A program made the position numbers and the translations under genes. A stretch of DNA of 13,377 bases from Jimgerdemannia flammicorona (Eukaryota; Mucoromycota; Endogonomycetes; Endogonales; Endogonaceae), in the NCBI GenBank assembly GCA_003990745.1, contig RBNI01004850.1:1-13377 (forward strand), written 5' to 3'. The notes under the pieces are model-generated. The model did no database searches. It had not been told where the DNA came from and was given only the letters and a program-made list of their open reading frames with translations. Shown here one piece after another: positions 2,651 to 12,546 of the stretch. Position 1 is the stretch's first letter. Each line of letters starts with the position of its first letter.

Positions 2651-2675
2651 TACTGATATTCTCCTTATGGCTCAT

Positions 2676-3060
2676 ACTTTCAGTACTTCTAAATTCTTCA
2701 GTACTCCAAGTAATTTCTTTTAGAATTATAACTTCCTTAATTGTTAGTACTTTGACTTGTTCTAGGATTAGTTATACAACTTTGTCTTACTTCTTAATTT
2801 TGAAGAGTTATATACCATTATTGATCAGAAGTACTTTGATTTCTCTATAATAATCTGGATCTACTATCTTTATATCTAGATTAATATAATGTTTAATACT
2901 AAGATCTGATCATGGTCCAATCTTTCTATAATACTCTTTAGATATCTGTATAACTAGCCCAATAGCTATGAGTTATTACTGTTCTGTAGGAATTGTTGTA
3001 TCTTGAATTACTACTAGATCTAACCTAATTACTCCTAAGATTTTTGCTTCTGGAATGATG
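2676..3060 (-). other. dUTPase domain inside the Gypsy polyprotein, all five motifs recognisable
   Basis: dUTPase hydrolyses dUTP to dUMP and pyrophosphate and so limits uracil in newly made cDNA. Five trimeric-dUTPase motifs occur in order and at plausible spacing. Motif 1 is GVIRLDL (3035-3015), followed by VIQDTTIP. Motif 2 is P-stop-SDLS (2915-2898; expected PRSGLA, with CGA-to-TGA and Gly-to-Asp). Motif 3 is KIVDPDYYRE (2870-2841; its Asp kept). Motif 4 is K-stop-DKVV-stop-LI (2792-2766; expected GDRIAQLI). Motif 5 is TEEFRSTES (2702-2676; expected G-E-G-F-G-S-T-G, with three Gly-to-Glu/Arg changes). It lies in frame between the zinc knuckle and the protease, so it was made as part of the polyprotein. 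It is now inactive. Confidence 0.85.
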
Positions 3061-3185
3061 ATATCAGGATATAGTTTCTGAACTATCAGATATACTTTTT
3101 TAGTTTGAGTGATAGGCATTACTATTTCCTTCTTAGTAATAACCAAAACCTTTTTTGTTTCTGTTTTATTATTAATCTTTTTGAG

Positions 3186-3990
3186 GCATTTTATAGTAAT
3201 ATATCCTTCTTTTTAATAATAAAAGTAGGCTTTACTTTTATATAATTTTTCCTTTTCCTTAGATATAAGTCTTAATTTAATAATAATATCTAGATCTATT
3301 GGGACAGAACCTATAACTTTTTTAGAATATCTATATCCTTATTAAGGCTTCTTAGATTATTTAGAGAAATAATTTCTTTCAAAAGAGATTATATTAAAGT
3401 AGTCAGTAATCAATATTACTTCTTTAATAGTATTTGGATCTTATAGTTCTACTTCTTGTCTAGTATAATCCTTAAGTTCTCACATATATCTATTAAGCTT
3501 TTCAGCTTTGCTGTTGTTATTAATCTCTAAGGCTATACTCATAAAGATAGCAGTATAGACCTTGACTGATTCTGTTTATTACAGAGATATTAACTTATCT
3601 CTGGCTATCTTTTTCAAGTTGATGGGCTTGAACTACTATATAAGTTAATCTTGAAACTTATCTTAGTCTGAGAGGTCTTCTTTATCTTTGGCTATTTGGA
3701 CTTTTGTTTTTTACCAAATAACTATATCTCCTTATAGTAGTACTTCTATATAAGTAACTAACTCCTCATTTGATATATTTATTATTGCTAGATACTAGTT
3801 CATATTGAAGAGCTAGGTTTTGATATCACCACTTCTTCCATTGTAGGGTTTAGGTAGTAGTAACTTGAGGTGAGTCTTCTTATTTTTAGTAGAGAGGTCT
3901 GCTGTTAGTTCTTTGCCTTTAGAACCTAATACTACCTCTATTACTTATATCTTTGCTTGTGTCTCTTGATAGGTCTACATCAACTATACT
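3186..3990 (-). pseudogene. Gag core and CCHC zinc knuckle of the Gypsy element
   Basis: Gag packages element RNA into virus-like particles. The translation shows the usual fungal Gypsy pattern: LPKPYNGRSGDIKT (the K-P-x-x-F/Y-x-G start of the core) near 3854, GDIVIW, FKPINLKKIARDKLISL, ESVKVYTAIFMSI, ELKDYTRQEVEL and DPNTIKEVI. The knuckle at 3227-3186 keeps exact C-x2-C-x4-H-x4-C spacing, but the first Cys, second Cys and His are all Tyr codons (TAC, TAT, TAT), with a TAA inside; only the last Cys (TGC) survives. These are the changes expected from TG-to-TA and CA-to-TA mutation. Confidence 0.85.
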
Positions 3991-4064: not shown

Positions 4065-5085
4065 GAGGTTTAACTTTTCACTACTACTAATTATAATAAA
4101 TATATATATTATAGAGAATAATTATACTTATTAAAGTATAAGAGTACTTCAATATAGTTAAGCTAAATGAAATCTAAGACTTAGACTATATATCAGCAAA
4201 TATCTAAATAGAAATATATAACCAGATTTTAAGAAATAGAAATTGAGAAGTTCAATTACCTTTAGGAAATTTGAGTAAATGTATAATAACTAACTAGATT
4301 GAACTTTATTAAAGTATTTTGAAAGAATATTTATATAAGAGAAATAAAAAGAAAAAGAAACAGATAGAACATTACTAAGTTAGATATCAAGCAATGAGTC
4401 ATGCTTAGCAGAACTTGGTAAAATATTATAGAGAGTTACTAAGTATTAATTAGTAATTAATAGAATCTAAGCAGAACTATTTAGAAAATAAGTTCTTAGC
4501 AAATGACTAAGTAATTCTATACTATTCTAAGCTATTCTGAAATATTCTATTGAATAATATGATAAAGAAAAAGATAATAATCTAGCAAAAGAAAAAAATA
4601 GAATATAGATGATTATTATACCAGATTAATTACTATAATAATTCTTTTGCTTTTTTCTCATTTTTTCTTTTAATTAGATAATGACTTTATATTTATTATC
4701 TTATTTCTATCATCCTTATCAATGTAAGAATAATCTCATCACTTTTGGTTATCATTTATTTTACTTTGGAACTTAAAGTAAAACCATTAGAGTTATAGAG
4801 TATAATTTCTACTTTATTCTAAAATCTTTTAAAATAATCCTTAAAAGTCATTTTTTTTCACCCTGCTTCTCAAAGAAAAAATAGCTTAGAAGGTGTCAAA
4901 CATTCATCCCAATCAAAAATAATTCTTAGCTTTCTCCCTTTAACTTTTGCCTGTTCTTTGATAAAAGTGTATAAGAACTTAATGTAATTTTGAGAATTCA
5001 TATTTCAGGCATACTGCAACAAAACCAGACAAAATGAACATTTGACATAGGCAGGATCAAAACATATGCAACTATTAGGGATTTT
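4065..5085. other. A+T-rich non-coding stretch, probable Gypsy leader and LTR remains
   Basis: No gene is visible in this kilobase. It lies upstream of Gag on the minus strand, where a leader, primer-binding site and 5' LTR should sit, and it is very A+T-rich without CpG. I could not fix LTR ends or a primer-binding site. Visible details are an imperfect tandem series of TATTCTA-type units at about 4510-4560, a recurrent TATTAAAGTAT (about 4130 and 4308), and a hairpin at 4759-4783. Confidence 0.5.
4759..4783. repeat. Short perfect inverted repeat (9-bp arms, 7-nt loop)
   Basis: TTTTACTTT (4759-4767) and AAAGTAAAA (4775-4783) are perfect inverted arms around GGAACTT. In such A+T-rich DNA it may be chance; no function is assigned. 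Confidence 0.5.
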
Positions 5086-5109
5086 AGCAATTCGTTTAAT
5101 AATGCAAAA

Positions 5110-5154
5110 GTACCGAACTTGACCCGTTTCAACGTTGTGGGTCAAGTTTGGCAC
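5110..5154. repeat. 16-bp inverted repeat around a 13-nt loop at the edge of the CpG-rich island
   Basis: The left arm 5110-5125 (core AACTTGACCC) and right arm 5139-5154 (core GGGTCAAGTT) pair perfectly over 10 bp, and over 14 of 16 positions in full; one of the two exceptions is a G-T pair. It lies where the A+T-rich, CpG-free left flank gives way to CpG-containing DNA, about 450 bp upstream of the predicted gene start. It could be a dimeric transcription-factor site, a structured element, or the end of an old insertion. Confidence 0.6.
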
Positions 5155-5159
5155 TCTTC

Positions 5160-5255
5160 AAAGCTGACGTCAAGATCAACCCAGGAAAACCACGAAGTGA
5201 ACATTTGGCGTCATCAATAATGTCACGTGTATTGTGCGTGACAAGTGACGTTTTT
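5160..5255 (+). promoter_or_regulatory. Probable promoter region with clustered bZIP- and bHLH-type sites
   Basis: A perfect TGACGTCA palindrome (full CRE/ATF-type site) is at 5165-5172, a GGCGTCAT half-site near 5208, CACGTG at 5224-5229 and TGACG again at 5246-5250, all within 90 bp. A T-run and a C-run follow at about 5251-5300. These motifs are known fungal bZIP and bHLH binding sequences; their use here is inferred from clustering upstream of the only intact-looking gene. Confidence 0.5.
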
Positions 5256-5289
5256 TTTTTTTTTGCACGCGCGTCGTTTGTTTGTTGAC

Positions 5290-5604
5290 CCCCCCCCCAG
5301 ACAACTTTCCCCAACTCCAGTTTCATATGTATGTATTAAAAACACTCAATTTCCAGGTGTTTTTCTTCTCTTTCCAAATGACAATTCCTCCAGACAACAT
5401 TTCCCCAGGCAACATTCCTCAGGCCACTTTTAATTTTTTTTTGCAGACAAAATTGCCTACGAATTACACAGACAAAGAGTTAAGAAACCCCATACATACT
5501 GCAACCCCTCCAAGGAGGCTAACCTGTGTGCAGCGCTGATCCTGAGAGCGACTTAAACGTTTTCGCGTCTTCTGTTTTGAAGTCTTCGTATTTTATTTCC
5601 TTAC
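5290..5604 (+). promoter_or_regulatory. Pyrimidine-rich leader of the 5605-6740 gene with short degenerate repeats
   Basis: No convincing coding sequence is visible. CAGACAACTTTCCCC (about 5298) recurs as CAGACAACATTTCCCC (about 5391) and in weaker form as CAGGCAACATTCC just after. The stretch has long C/T runs typical of fungal promoters and 5' leaders and ends in CpG-containing sequence just before the candidate ATG at 5605. Confidence 0.4.
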
Positions 5605-6740
5605 ATGTCGACATCTGACGAGCCGCGTTCACACTACCTTGGCTATGAAGGGGGTTTTTTTTTATTCAAACAGTGCTCACAAAATATTTGGATAGTCGTA
5701 AGCCAGAGGATGCTATTCTTGTCATGCCGCCGTTCAGCGATGATTGGAGCTCACTCGATGGAGCTTGGCTGAGGAGGTTTTGGTGGGCGACTGAGGAGCG
5801 ATGTGATAATATTAATTTTAAAAAAATGGTATGTTATTTTCAGATTTTCGAAGCGGCAATGATGACACTCTCATTCAAGTGACTACTGGTTTGAGAGCAT
5901 TCAGTGACTACTGAGGTTGTCATTGTTGCGAGTGGCCAACGATAGCGCTCTCATTTAAGTGACTACTGGTTTGAGAGCATTCAGTGACTACTGAGGTTAT
6001 TGTTGGTTGCGATTGTTTTGTTTGGTGCTGATATTCATGTATTCAAATTTGTGATAAACTTTACTAATGTATTTCTTTATTCCATGAGACGAAATCTGGC
6101 AACCGATGTACTGGACAAATATAATTCTTGAGCGCTCGGAAGTGAGTGTGAATCAAATGCAAAAAGTATTCTAGGATGCATATTTAGAGCACTACTAATT
6201 GCTAATACTATCAAATTACAGATTGAAACGAGAGCGATGACGAGGGCGGTGATAAACAATGAGGGAATGAGTACTCTTGGGGAATCTATTCGAGCTCAGG
6301 GACGAAAATTTCGCGAAGAGGTAGTAGTACTGTAATATTTTCATTGCTTACATGTTAGTTAGAATTTGTAACTCTAACTTTTCAAGTAATGGCCATTATT
6401 ACGTTGGTTTACATAGATCATCACGGAGGTTGAAGAACGAAATCCAAAACGGCGAGTAATTACTGACGACGGCCACTTCGCGTTTCCCGACTCTTTCATT
6501 GAATCCCAAGTTTCCCAAGAAATTCCCCCTGAAGAGCAAATCGTAAGTTATTTCATACCTTTTATTTTATTTTCTTTGTTGGCCGTACGTTAATTAAATC
6601 AATTTAATTAGGGCCATCACATTGTGGAAGAGTTACATGAAGTGACAGCTGAGAATGAGAGCACACTTCTCCCTGCATCGAGTTTGGTGTCTATCCTTCA
6701 GCAGCATTCTGCAAAGTCAACGACTTCTCAATTTGAGTGA
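5605..6740 (+). CDS. Multi-exon gene for an unrecognised protein of about 183 residues
   Basis: No family is recognised. A consistent spliced model is 5605-5653, 5707-5802, 6089-6141, 6222-6320, 6417-6542 and 6612-6740 (552 nt with TGA stop). The last three introns (6142-6221 GTGAGT...TTACAG, 6321-6416 GTAGTA...CATAG, 6543-6611 GTAAGT...ATTAG) are strong, all phase 0, and the exons between them are fully open. Exon 2 contains MPPFSDDWSSLDGAWLRRFW, exon 3 EIWQPMYWTNIILERSE, exon 4 MTRAVINNEGMSTLGESIR, exon 5 FPDSFIESQVSQEIPPEEQ. The N-terminal half is Trp-rich, the C-terminal half acidic and polar; no signal peptide or membrane segment is seen. The first two introns are less sure: donor GTTTTT at 5654 is poor, and the 286-nt intron holds a duplication. 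CpG content and intact frames set it apart from the dead transposons around it. Confidence 0.62.
5861..6015. repeat. 80-bp tandem duplication inside the largest intron of the 5605-6740 gene
   Basis: The sequence from GATGACACTCTCATTCAAGT (5861) recurs from 5941 as GATAGCGCTCTCATTTAAGT with an 80-bp period and near identity for about 75 bp. Inside each copy AGTGACTACTG occurs twice. Both copies carry stops in all likely coding frames, so they are probably intronic. Confidence 0.85.
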
Positions 6741-7127
6741 GTTCGGTTAGAGAGAGTGTTGTGAAATTGTCTATTTGTAGCAATTGATGTTGATCTAATC
6801 CAGTAACTCTCTCACTTTTTTTTTCTTATCTGTTGTAATATAGTGGATGCCTAACCTTAGAAGTATGGCAGATTTCAGTATCTTGAAAACTTGACTTGTT
6901 CTGACTCTTGTAGAGTTCTCAGAGTACAGGGAAGTGAGTTTGAAGTATATCTACCTATAGGCTTATTAGTTTCTTTGTTTTCTCTTTGCTTTGAACTATT
7001 TCAATCTGAGGTTTATTCACTCTAAAATATTGAGTTATTTATATAAGTTTGCTAGCTATAAGGTGGCTAAGTTATGACTATGTTATGAGTCATTTTTCAT
7101 AAGTATTAATTCTTGATATCTGTTAAA

Positions 7128-9420: not shown

Positions 9421-10259
9421 ATCTCAATACCAGTTATCTTCTTCCAAAAATCCCAAGGCAGTCCTATCCTCCTCAGGTACTATCTCTATACTCATCATTG
9501 CCAAGACCTGACACATCTCTTCTCTACTTACTGGATCTCCAAGTTTGCCCAGGCCTGTGGCCAGGTCTGAGTGCCAATCCTCCAGCTGCCTTTCAATACC
9601 TTGGGCATCCTCACCCCTCTTCTTCTCACTCTATAGTTGCTCTCAGTGAGACTGCAATAAGTCTAAGATCTCTGGTGTCTCAGTCATCATCTCTCCTGCC
9701 TCATCTAATACTTCTTCCCACTACTATCTTATCCTCCTTACCTATAGCAGCCTTAATAAAAATTTAGTAGACCACTCTCTCTCCTCCATACCCTACCATC
9801 TCAGCTGAGCTGCCAGCTCTTTCACCTGCAATTTCTTCTTCAGTTCTTCCACCTCCTGCTAGATTCTCTGAATCCTCCAATCTCCTACCCTACAATTCTT
9901 TAATAATCCAGCTCACCTCTCCAGTAGGTTTGCTAGTCTCTGTAAAGTCTATCTAATATACTACCTCTGCTGGATTCCTCTCTCTCTCTCTGCCTCACCT
10001 CAATACTACTGAGCATCAGATTTCAACTGCTGCCAACAATTCCCAACCTCCAATCTCTGTGTCCTTCAGCCCACTACCTTAGCACTAACATCTACTATCT
10101 ATTCTCCCTACAAGGCACTATTGCCCAGCAATGTGGTATTCAGGTACCAATATCCAGGCCCATCCCCACTGCTCCAAACCTCTCTCTGCTCAGCAACCCC
10201 CAGTGGTCTAACCAAAGATACCAGACTGTCTTAATCTTGCTCCAAACATCTGTACTTCA

Positions 10260-10883
10260 GTACTCTGCTGTTAATACCCAGTCTATCCACAATTCCAGTC
10301 CTGCTACCCAATAAGTATAGATCCTACAATCTGCCCACTCAAGTCACCCAGTATATATCAAAGAACTCAGTCTCTCAATCTCCTCTCAGTCCTCTATCTC
10401 ACTACTCCTGCCTGCCATATCCCTCCCTCTATTAGTTCTGTCTAACCCATTATCATATATCATATTAAAGTCATCCCCCAGATAGTTGATTTCTGCCTCT
10501 GCCAAAACACCAACCTTCTGCAGATCCTGGACCCAATCCACTTACTCCCCCCTTTCTGTCAGGCAATAGCATGATCCTACAGTTAGGAGACTCTAACCTA
10601 GTCTCCTCTATACTCCCCACACCAATTAGCTCCCCCAATGTCCAATGTTCCCAATGTCCCCCACCCTCTTCCTGATCAGAATAGCCACCCACCCCAGCTA
10701 TACTACTGTACCATCCCATTCTCTCATCCAGTTCAGTAAGTCTAAGTCCACATTATAACCCACATTCTGTAGTAAGAAAAGATCTGCATCTAGCCTCTTC
10801 AATCAGCTGAAGATATTCTATCATCTCATTATATCCCTCAGTCTATTGATATTCAAAGAGCAGATTCTAGTTGTACTATTCAT
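10260..10883 (-). other. APE-type endonuclease domain of LINE ORF2
   Basis: From the ORF2 start I read ICSLNINRLRD (the S/L-N-I-N-G-L start of APE nucleases), LKRLDADLFLLQNVG (the L-Q-E block, with Asn in place of Glu), NWMREWDGTVV and VAILIRKR. GDDFNMIYDNGLDR (GDFN block) begins at 10478-10464, and LELWIDWVLTAEY, the counterpart of S-R-I-D-x-I, lies near 10270-10295. Between about 10660 and 10480 the frame is disturbed. Order and spacing fit the domain well. Confidence 0.8.
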
Positions 10884-12399: not shown

Positions 12400-12542
12400 A
12401 TCTGATCCAGATTGATCCAGATTGATCCAGATTGATCTATCTGGATTGATCCATCCAGATTGATCCAGATTGATCCATCCAGATTGGTCCATCTGGATTG
12501 GTCCATCCGGATTGGTCCATCTGGATTGATCCATCTAGATTG
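12400..12542. repeat. Minisatellite of 10- and 14-bp units (GATCCAGATT / GATCCATCCAGATT)
   Basis: About eleven head-to-tail units alternate between GATCCAGATT and a 14-bp form with an extra CATC, with variants GGTCCATCTGGATT and GGTCCATCCGGATT. It forms the outer 5' end of the LINE, where it could have served as a promoter array like the repeated 5' monomers of some LINEs. The core differs by one C/T change from the GATTCAGATT core of the minisatellite at 1556-1815. Confidence 0.9.
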
Positions 12543-12546
12543 AAAT

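Follow-up and report, generated by a model that had tools for sequence, protein, structure and literature searches.

The stretch of DNA analyzed here, referred to as the window (13,377 nucleotides of contig RBNI01004850.1 from Jimgerdemannia flammicorona), contains a trimeric dUTPase domain, and its placement between the Gag and protease (PR) regions of a decayed retroelement is confirmed. The domain, its order and the reading frame that it shares with its neighbors are directly observed. What the window contains is very likely a copy, truncated and mutated from C to T, of a chromovirus-like Ty3/Gypsy element, whose ancestral polyprotein read Gag-nucleocapsid (NC)-dUTPase-PR-reverse transcriptase (RT) in one frame and whose dUTPase served to clear dUTP. 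The element is called chromovirus-like because of its sister families in the same genome (families A to D, described below).

A decayed dUTPase domain between Gag and protease

The original prediction, made from the letters of the window, was of a dUTPase domain that should be recognizable by HMM search in spite of the decay and should be present in less decayed copies. Both are found. When the minus strand of 2664-3212 is translated with stop codons as X, PF00692 matches with 53.1 bits (cut-off 22) and covers profile positions 15-127 of 129 (Table 1), and less decayed relatives retain the dUTPase. The PF00692 scores of the relatives reach 130.1 bits, and at a limit of E 0.001 the domain matches 77 distinct PDB sequences (best 9.2e-35), which supports the dUTPase reading.

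Profiles built from the relatives also place Gag, dUTPase and PR of the window in a common frame on the minus strand, as had been predicted. The individual neighbors are more eroded. Pfam matches on the Gag region are each below the cut-off (Ty3_capsid 1.2e-4, Retrotrans_gag 3.5e-4), and the CCHC knuckle has lost the majority of its Cys and His residues, being recognizable solely through a by-eye alignment with family A. The PR call is based on the relatives' profile, since Pfam is silent on protease in the open piece 2508-2771, which contains part of PR and gives two unrelated sub-threshold matches. The profile search of the window gave no match to RT, integrase (INT) or chromodomain. LTRs, target-site duplications and the 5' end of the copy were not located, the repeat search of the window showing no LTR, and Rfam (at the gathering threshold) and tRNA scans over the whole window found nothing.

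Table 1. Features of the window copy and of the Cys-rich modules of two sister families (window positions unless a locus is named)
Feature	Position	Strand	Basis
Gag capsid region, decayed	3899-3339	minus	profile from family A and P0021 Gag, E 1.2e-33
CCHC zinc knuckle remnant	about 3227-3186	minus	by-eye alignment with CFFCCQPGHIATKC of family A
Trimeric dUTPase domain, 6 in-frame stops	3077-2673	minus	PF00692, E 3.5e-14; relatives' profile, E 4e-29
dUTPase motif 1, GVIRLDL (family A: GAIGLDL)	3015-3035	minus	alignment
dUTPase motif 2, internal stop (L009: RIAPRSGLS)	2895-2927	minus	alignment
dUTPase motif 3, Asp and Tyr of DPDY kept	2820-2879	minus	alignment
dUTPase motif 4, two internal stops (family A: GDRIAQLIL)	2763-2795	minus	alignment
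dUTPase motif 5, Gly lost (family A: KGFGST)	2682-2711	minus	alignment
Retropepsin-type protease (PR), eroded active site	2651-2289	minus	PR relatives' profile, E 4.3e-17
PR-RT linker as far as the break, without an RT core	1901-2288	minus	alignments to sister loci and window profile search
14-nt minisatellite close to the break	1580-1803	plus	repeat search, 12 registers
Cys-rich module, family B	L011, about 6214-6390	minus	
Cys-rich module, family C	L009, about 6721-6891	plus	

Trimeric dUTPases are defined by five motifs, the third of which supplies the catalytic Asp and Tyr. In agreement with the prediction, the window keeps all five in order, but the motifs are eroded and the domain is crossed by the six stops; several Arg and Gln codons and the Gly residues of motif 5 are lost in the alignment. 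The copies of the window's own family that have a full-length dUTPase match (L014, L017, L018, L027, L029) carry 5 to 8 stops each. The alignment of family A copies also has the five motifs in order, with motifs 2, 4 and 5 largely retained in the five copies aligned. The Asp of motif 3 is kept in the window and in these five copies, and is lost in one family D copy (L065). The Tyr is present in the window, in family B and in the protein P0021 from another source, and is replaced by Phe in families A and D.

The copy in the window is dead. From 4700 to 1830 on the minus strand, the GC content is 0.26 and the CpG observed/expected ratio is 0.0; the adjacent region, 4700-6900, has near-normal CpG (0.75 and 0.91). 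Lying between CpG-free repeats, that region is perhaps a genic island; Pfam found no match in the two ORFs searched there. Comparison of the window with 21 sister copies gives a sum of 6,543 transitions against 888 transversions (Ti/Tv 7.4), a figure from alignments that all include the window copy and are thus non-independent. At positions where nine family A and D copies agree, the window has C>T at 27/83 and G>A at 29/73, with T>C at 6/107 and A>G at 25/180. Transversions are frequent at these consensus sites, presumably because A and D are different families from that of the window. The decay is deamination-like, and RIP-like only in a loose sense, because CpA is not singled out and no CpG sites are left to score. 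A classical RIP confined to CpA was considered and rejected: C-to-T is found at 11/28 CpA, 20/57 CpT and 8/13 CpC, zero CpG sites being scorable.

The copy is also truncated at about 1901, ahead of the RT core. Homology to the sister copies ends there: 11 loci span position 1901 and none is listed at 1801, and position 1901 is the exact start of 10 of the 21 best sister alignments. The minisatellite close to the break has 14-nt units related to those of a second one at 12411-12543. The window contains another high-copy repeat (9600-10600) with at least 41 matches including itself, the others being 72-79% identical, as counted from 40 scored of 1,500 candidates; the ORFs tested near it gave no Pfam match.

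Sister families and relatives

The genome searched comprises 134.8 Mb in 7,754 contigs, several of which end within the elements, and the high copy number of the domain in it is a direct observation. Its content agrees with a fungal host, with 51 Zn_clus matches and one fungal U3 match that scores below the gathering threshold; an RPB2 search yielded no close named match, the organism-named rows among the 120 listed being a Myotis-labelled record (62%) and Linnemannia elongata (68%). All 150 places scored with the PF00692 profile lie above the cut-off; they are drawn from 5,391 first-look candidates, a number not to be read as confirmed copies. When the window piece was searched as DNA, 28 rows were obtained, the window among them and the others 68-84% identical, with L038 and L039 overlapping as a single place. 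The dUTPase signal is present in 27 of the 28 rows (the exception is L037); of these, 21 have Gag upstream and 21 have PR downstream. A domain order other than this one was not found among the 28.

Better preserved copies show the full arrangement. In family A, locus L009 has an open frame of 693 aa that runs from the end of Gag through CCHC, dUTPase and PR into RT, with matches to dUTPase (2.8e-34), RVP_2 (8.3e-10) and RT (2.9e-36); beyond the frame lie RNase H (RH) and integrase pieces and a chromodomain (3.1e-14). Gag and dUTPase are co-framed in 17 of the 20 family A loci having both (exceptions L002, L052 and L055). Family D (L064-L067) has the same order as family A, L041 falls with D in trees, and in both A and D a gap of only about 10 nt separates the profile match of dUTPase from that of PR. 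Family B (L010-L013 among other loci) reads Gag-CCHC-dUTPase, then a linker of about 200 nt, PR, RT and chromodomain (9.6e-16), and in L013 a frame of 803 aa extends from Gag through CCHC to dUTPase. The ancestral order would be Gag-NC-dUTPase-PR-RT in one frame, followed in the sister families by RH-INT-chromodomain. The order Gag, PR, RT, RH, INT with a chromodomain, which marks a chromovirus, is present in L009 of family A and also in family B, tested less fully; the window copy ends before RT. Family C is represented by one copy (L009, 6988-8235, or 6877-8235 at its widest) with dUTPase ahead of a distant RT. No PR was found between the two, and the stretch upstream of the dUTPase resembles the end of a protease by eye.

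How general the order is was gauged from the protease side, with 20 loci hand-picked at about every seventh of 150 RVP_2 matches (150 scored of 3,512 candidates), a sample biased toward well-preserved proteases of one type. A dUTPase lies just upstream in 19 of the 20, with A-like spacing in 8 and B-like spacing in 11; the call was made from the genome dUTPase lists for 7 loci and from 851-base stretches for 13 (12 positive). The best RVP_2 match of the genome (L070; G000:C4948) has no dUTPase within 0.7 kb upstream, and may possibly be a dUTPase-less sister element. A Gag-dUTPase-PR layout that saturates a genome is possibly novel; no genome saturated with this order is described in the titles and abstract starts of the open-licence papers listed.

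When the Gag tail-dUTPase-PR region was used as a protein query, 178 proteins matched, the best 120 of which were listed. Among ten proteins examined with Pfam, P0021 and P0024 have the order Gag-dUTPase-PR-RT, and the dUTPase follows PR in P0029, P0032, P0039, P0050, P0068, P0078 and P0063, the last a Geotrypetes protein with a SCAN domain. Other placements also occur. In P0079, a chromodomain Gypsy protein, RNase H and the integrase zinc-binding domain flank the dUTPase, and the plant-labelled proteins P0001 and P0020 have four and three tandem dUTPase domains, respectively. P0108 (1,104 aa) is listed with dUTPase and PF07727, which we take to be a Copia-type RT, so that a Copia-like element may also carry a dUTPase.

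A close parallel is P0021 (1,111 aa), which has the same order as the present elements: Gag-CCHC-dUTPase-PR-RT-RNase H-integrase zinc-binding domain. Its identity to family A is 54% in dUTPase and 57% in RT, but only 39% in PR; to family B it is 59% in RT, 39% in dUTPase and 30% in PR. An RT tree of 32 rows groups the Gag-dUTPase-PR types (A, B, D, the window family, L060, P0021 and P0025) together (100/99; bootstrap not fully settled), away from the PR-dUTPase-RT types and family C. Since every row is a dUTPase-bearing locus or protein, this tree is no test of a single gain against dUTPase-less elements. The idea of a fungal Gypsy lineage with the order Gag-dUTPase-PR-RT, raised in the original prediction, nevertheless gains from the order itself, the single frame, the RT grouping and the occurrence of P0021 in another source; the part of it that concerned how unusual the order is has fared less well (see below).

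The dUTPase trees are less simple. A tree of 45 rows places types A and D, the window type and P0021 on one side of a branch (93/88). With 52 rows, B and L060 fall with C (96/90, long branches flagged), and under a midpoint root most of the sampled cellular dUTPases join the PR-dUTPase-RT elements (92/97) and stay apart from the Gag-dUTPase-PR ones. A constraint uniting all Gag-dUTPase-PR dUTPases is marginally rejected (p-AU 0.049), a result with long branches that is not decisive. The RT of family B is as near to P0021 as is that of A, whereas its dUTPase and PR are not; the dUTPase of B may therefore represent a second gain or a replacement, or may simply be fast-evolving. The donor of the domain may have been a host dUTPase gene or another retroelement. 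A fungal dUTPase query of the genome distinguished no host DUT gene among 150 places scored of 4,974 candidates, the places not being inspected singly.

Families B and C are linked also by a Cys-rich module of about 45 aa (Table 1). In B it reads DGYxPxGRCPH...DCFSC and lies between dUTPase and PR, and in C a related module, DGYTP.GRCPH...DCWSC, lies upstream of dUTPase. The linkers of the two families share 24 of 54 residues without gaps (E 4e-19, a single comparison), and each as the sole query finds the other (E 6.8e-13 and 2.6e-13). A joint profile was searched against 82 loci, the window and 240 proteins (P0001-P0240). It matched 20 rows, namely 17 family B loci, L060, L009 (family C) and, weakly, L022, with L011 and L009 matching by construction; at E 0.01 it matched none of the 240 proteins, nor the window. 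The module has no Pfam match above the cut-off. Our guess is that it may bind zinc. That the module follows the dUTPase in one family and precedes it in another is possibly new.

A broader reading can be drawn from these data, which we hold tentatively and consider somewhat more apt to fail than to stand. An in-frame NC-dUTPase-PR arrangement, convergent with that of betaretroviruses, would be standard in a genome-filling lineage of fungal chromoviruses; its dUTPase would have been gained or replaced at least twice, as the grouping of the B dUTPase with that of C (which precedes RT) suggests, and the dUTPase and the Cys-rich module that B and C share would move together like a cassette.

What the dUTPase may do

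The dUTPase of the sister families is under purifying selection, like PR and RT, and this is directly observed. Between A and D copies, dN/dS (NG86) is 0.309/1.938, 0.269/2.088 and 0.294/2.375 (ratios 0.12-0.16), ratios that are rough because dS is near saturation, the deeper pairs being near or at it. Within B, the values are 0.025/0.312 and 0.03/0.303 (ratios 0.08-0.10) and within A 0.023/0.124 (ratio 0.19). For the same pairs, the ratios are about 0.13-0.25 in PR and 0.11-0.17 in RT. The low ratios indicate that selection acting on the elements maintains the dUTPase, just as it does PR and RT.

We prefer the view that what is maintained is the clearing of dUTP. The protease would release the dUTPase from the polyprotein or leave it as an NC-dUTPase fusion, and the enzyme, assembled as the usual trimer, would be packaged alongside reverse transcriptase. 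By hydrolyzing dUTP, it would keep cDNA made outside S phase from being uracilated and attacked. Viral dUTPases have been related to replication in non-dividing cells (in the excerpted text of PMC2864245). The present elements make it testable whether uracil control is a limiting step for retroelements whose copying takes place in fungal cells that divide slowly or not at all.

The domain could instead have no enzymatic role, or an altered one, and extend NC or PR in a structural or regulatory capacity. A precedent is found in bovine immunodeficiency virus, whose dUTPase-related protein is reported to be required despite having no activity (PMC4261571, title and opening of the abstract). The replacement of the motif 3 Tyr by Phe in families A and D points in the same direction, as does the close spacing of dUTPase and PR in these families, by which the C-terminal arm of the dUTPase is fused closely to PR. 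However, the five aligned A copies have the motif 3 Asp and preserve most of motifs 2, 4 and 5, the domain is not shortened, and the Tyr is retained in family B and P0021. Purifying selection also speaks for an enzyme, though a structural role would be compatible with it too. On balance, we regard a purely structural or altered role as improbable. That the copies are kept for the host's own dUTP control is very doubtful: their very large number might suggest it, but they are embedded in gag-pol and decayed to varying degree, and their CpG depletion fits silenced repeats. Finally, the heavy decay of the window and the six stops across its domain might suggest a chance juxtaposition, or a host DUT pseudogene beside a transposon fragment, but the identical order in dozens of loci rules this out for practical purposes, as do the natural open frames from the end of Gag to RT (L009) and from Gag to dUTPase (L013).

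Comparison with known systems

The dUTP-clearing element preferred here is not new in kind, as dUTPases are already known from fungal LTR elements and from retroviruses. In Postia placenta, the Gypsy elements PosPlaTy3-3, -4 and -5 carry a dUTPase at three different positions, for which independent gains were suggested (PMC2864245, excerpts). In PosPlaTy3-3 the dUTPase forms the N-terminal part of Pol, so that its published domain order is that of the present elements. The same excerpts cite dUTPase-bearing Metaviridae of Phanerochaete chrysosporium (Novikova and Blinov, 2008) and the LTR element Tmt1 of Tuber, which also has a dUTPase (Riccioni, 2008). The latter work is cited elsewhere for a dUTPase between PR and RT, unlike the present order (PMC5408684 and PMC6431247, in the text available from each). 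Transposon proteins with dUTPase have also been remarked on in Glomeromycotina (PMC11878562, in part).

The bdelloid elements Juno, Vesta and TelKA are retrovirus-like LTR elements with a dUTPase, and Juno has an additional Zn knuckle following it. According to the excerpts of PMC5408684, PR and RT flank the dUTPase in these elements, in which a chromodomain was not detected, both unlike the elements described here.

The nearest retroviral counterpart is provided by the betaretroviruses (MMTV p30, M-PMV), where the order is NC-dUTPase-PR and the dUTPase is fused to nucleocapsid (PMC4531489, in excerpt). Together with PosPlaTy3-3, they give the order precedents, so that the suggestion that it is unusual or unprecedented does not hold, as far as these partial texts go. 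It should be noted that the likeness to betaretroviruses is one of order. The betaretroviral NC-dUTPase is a trans-frame product made by ribosomal frameshifting (PMC4531489, same excerpt), whereas a dUTPase of that gag/pro trans-frame type is not seen here: Gag and dUTPase are co-framed in the window and in the 17 of 20 family A loci. In sum, in one fungal genome a retroelement dUTPase is seen to be the norm, not a curiosity, and it has the betaretrovirus arrangement, which makes it testable whether the same Gag-dUTPase-PR layout has arisen more than once.
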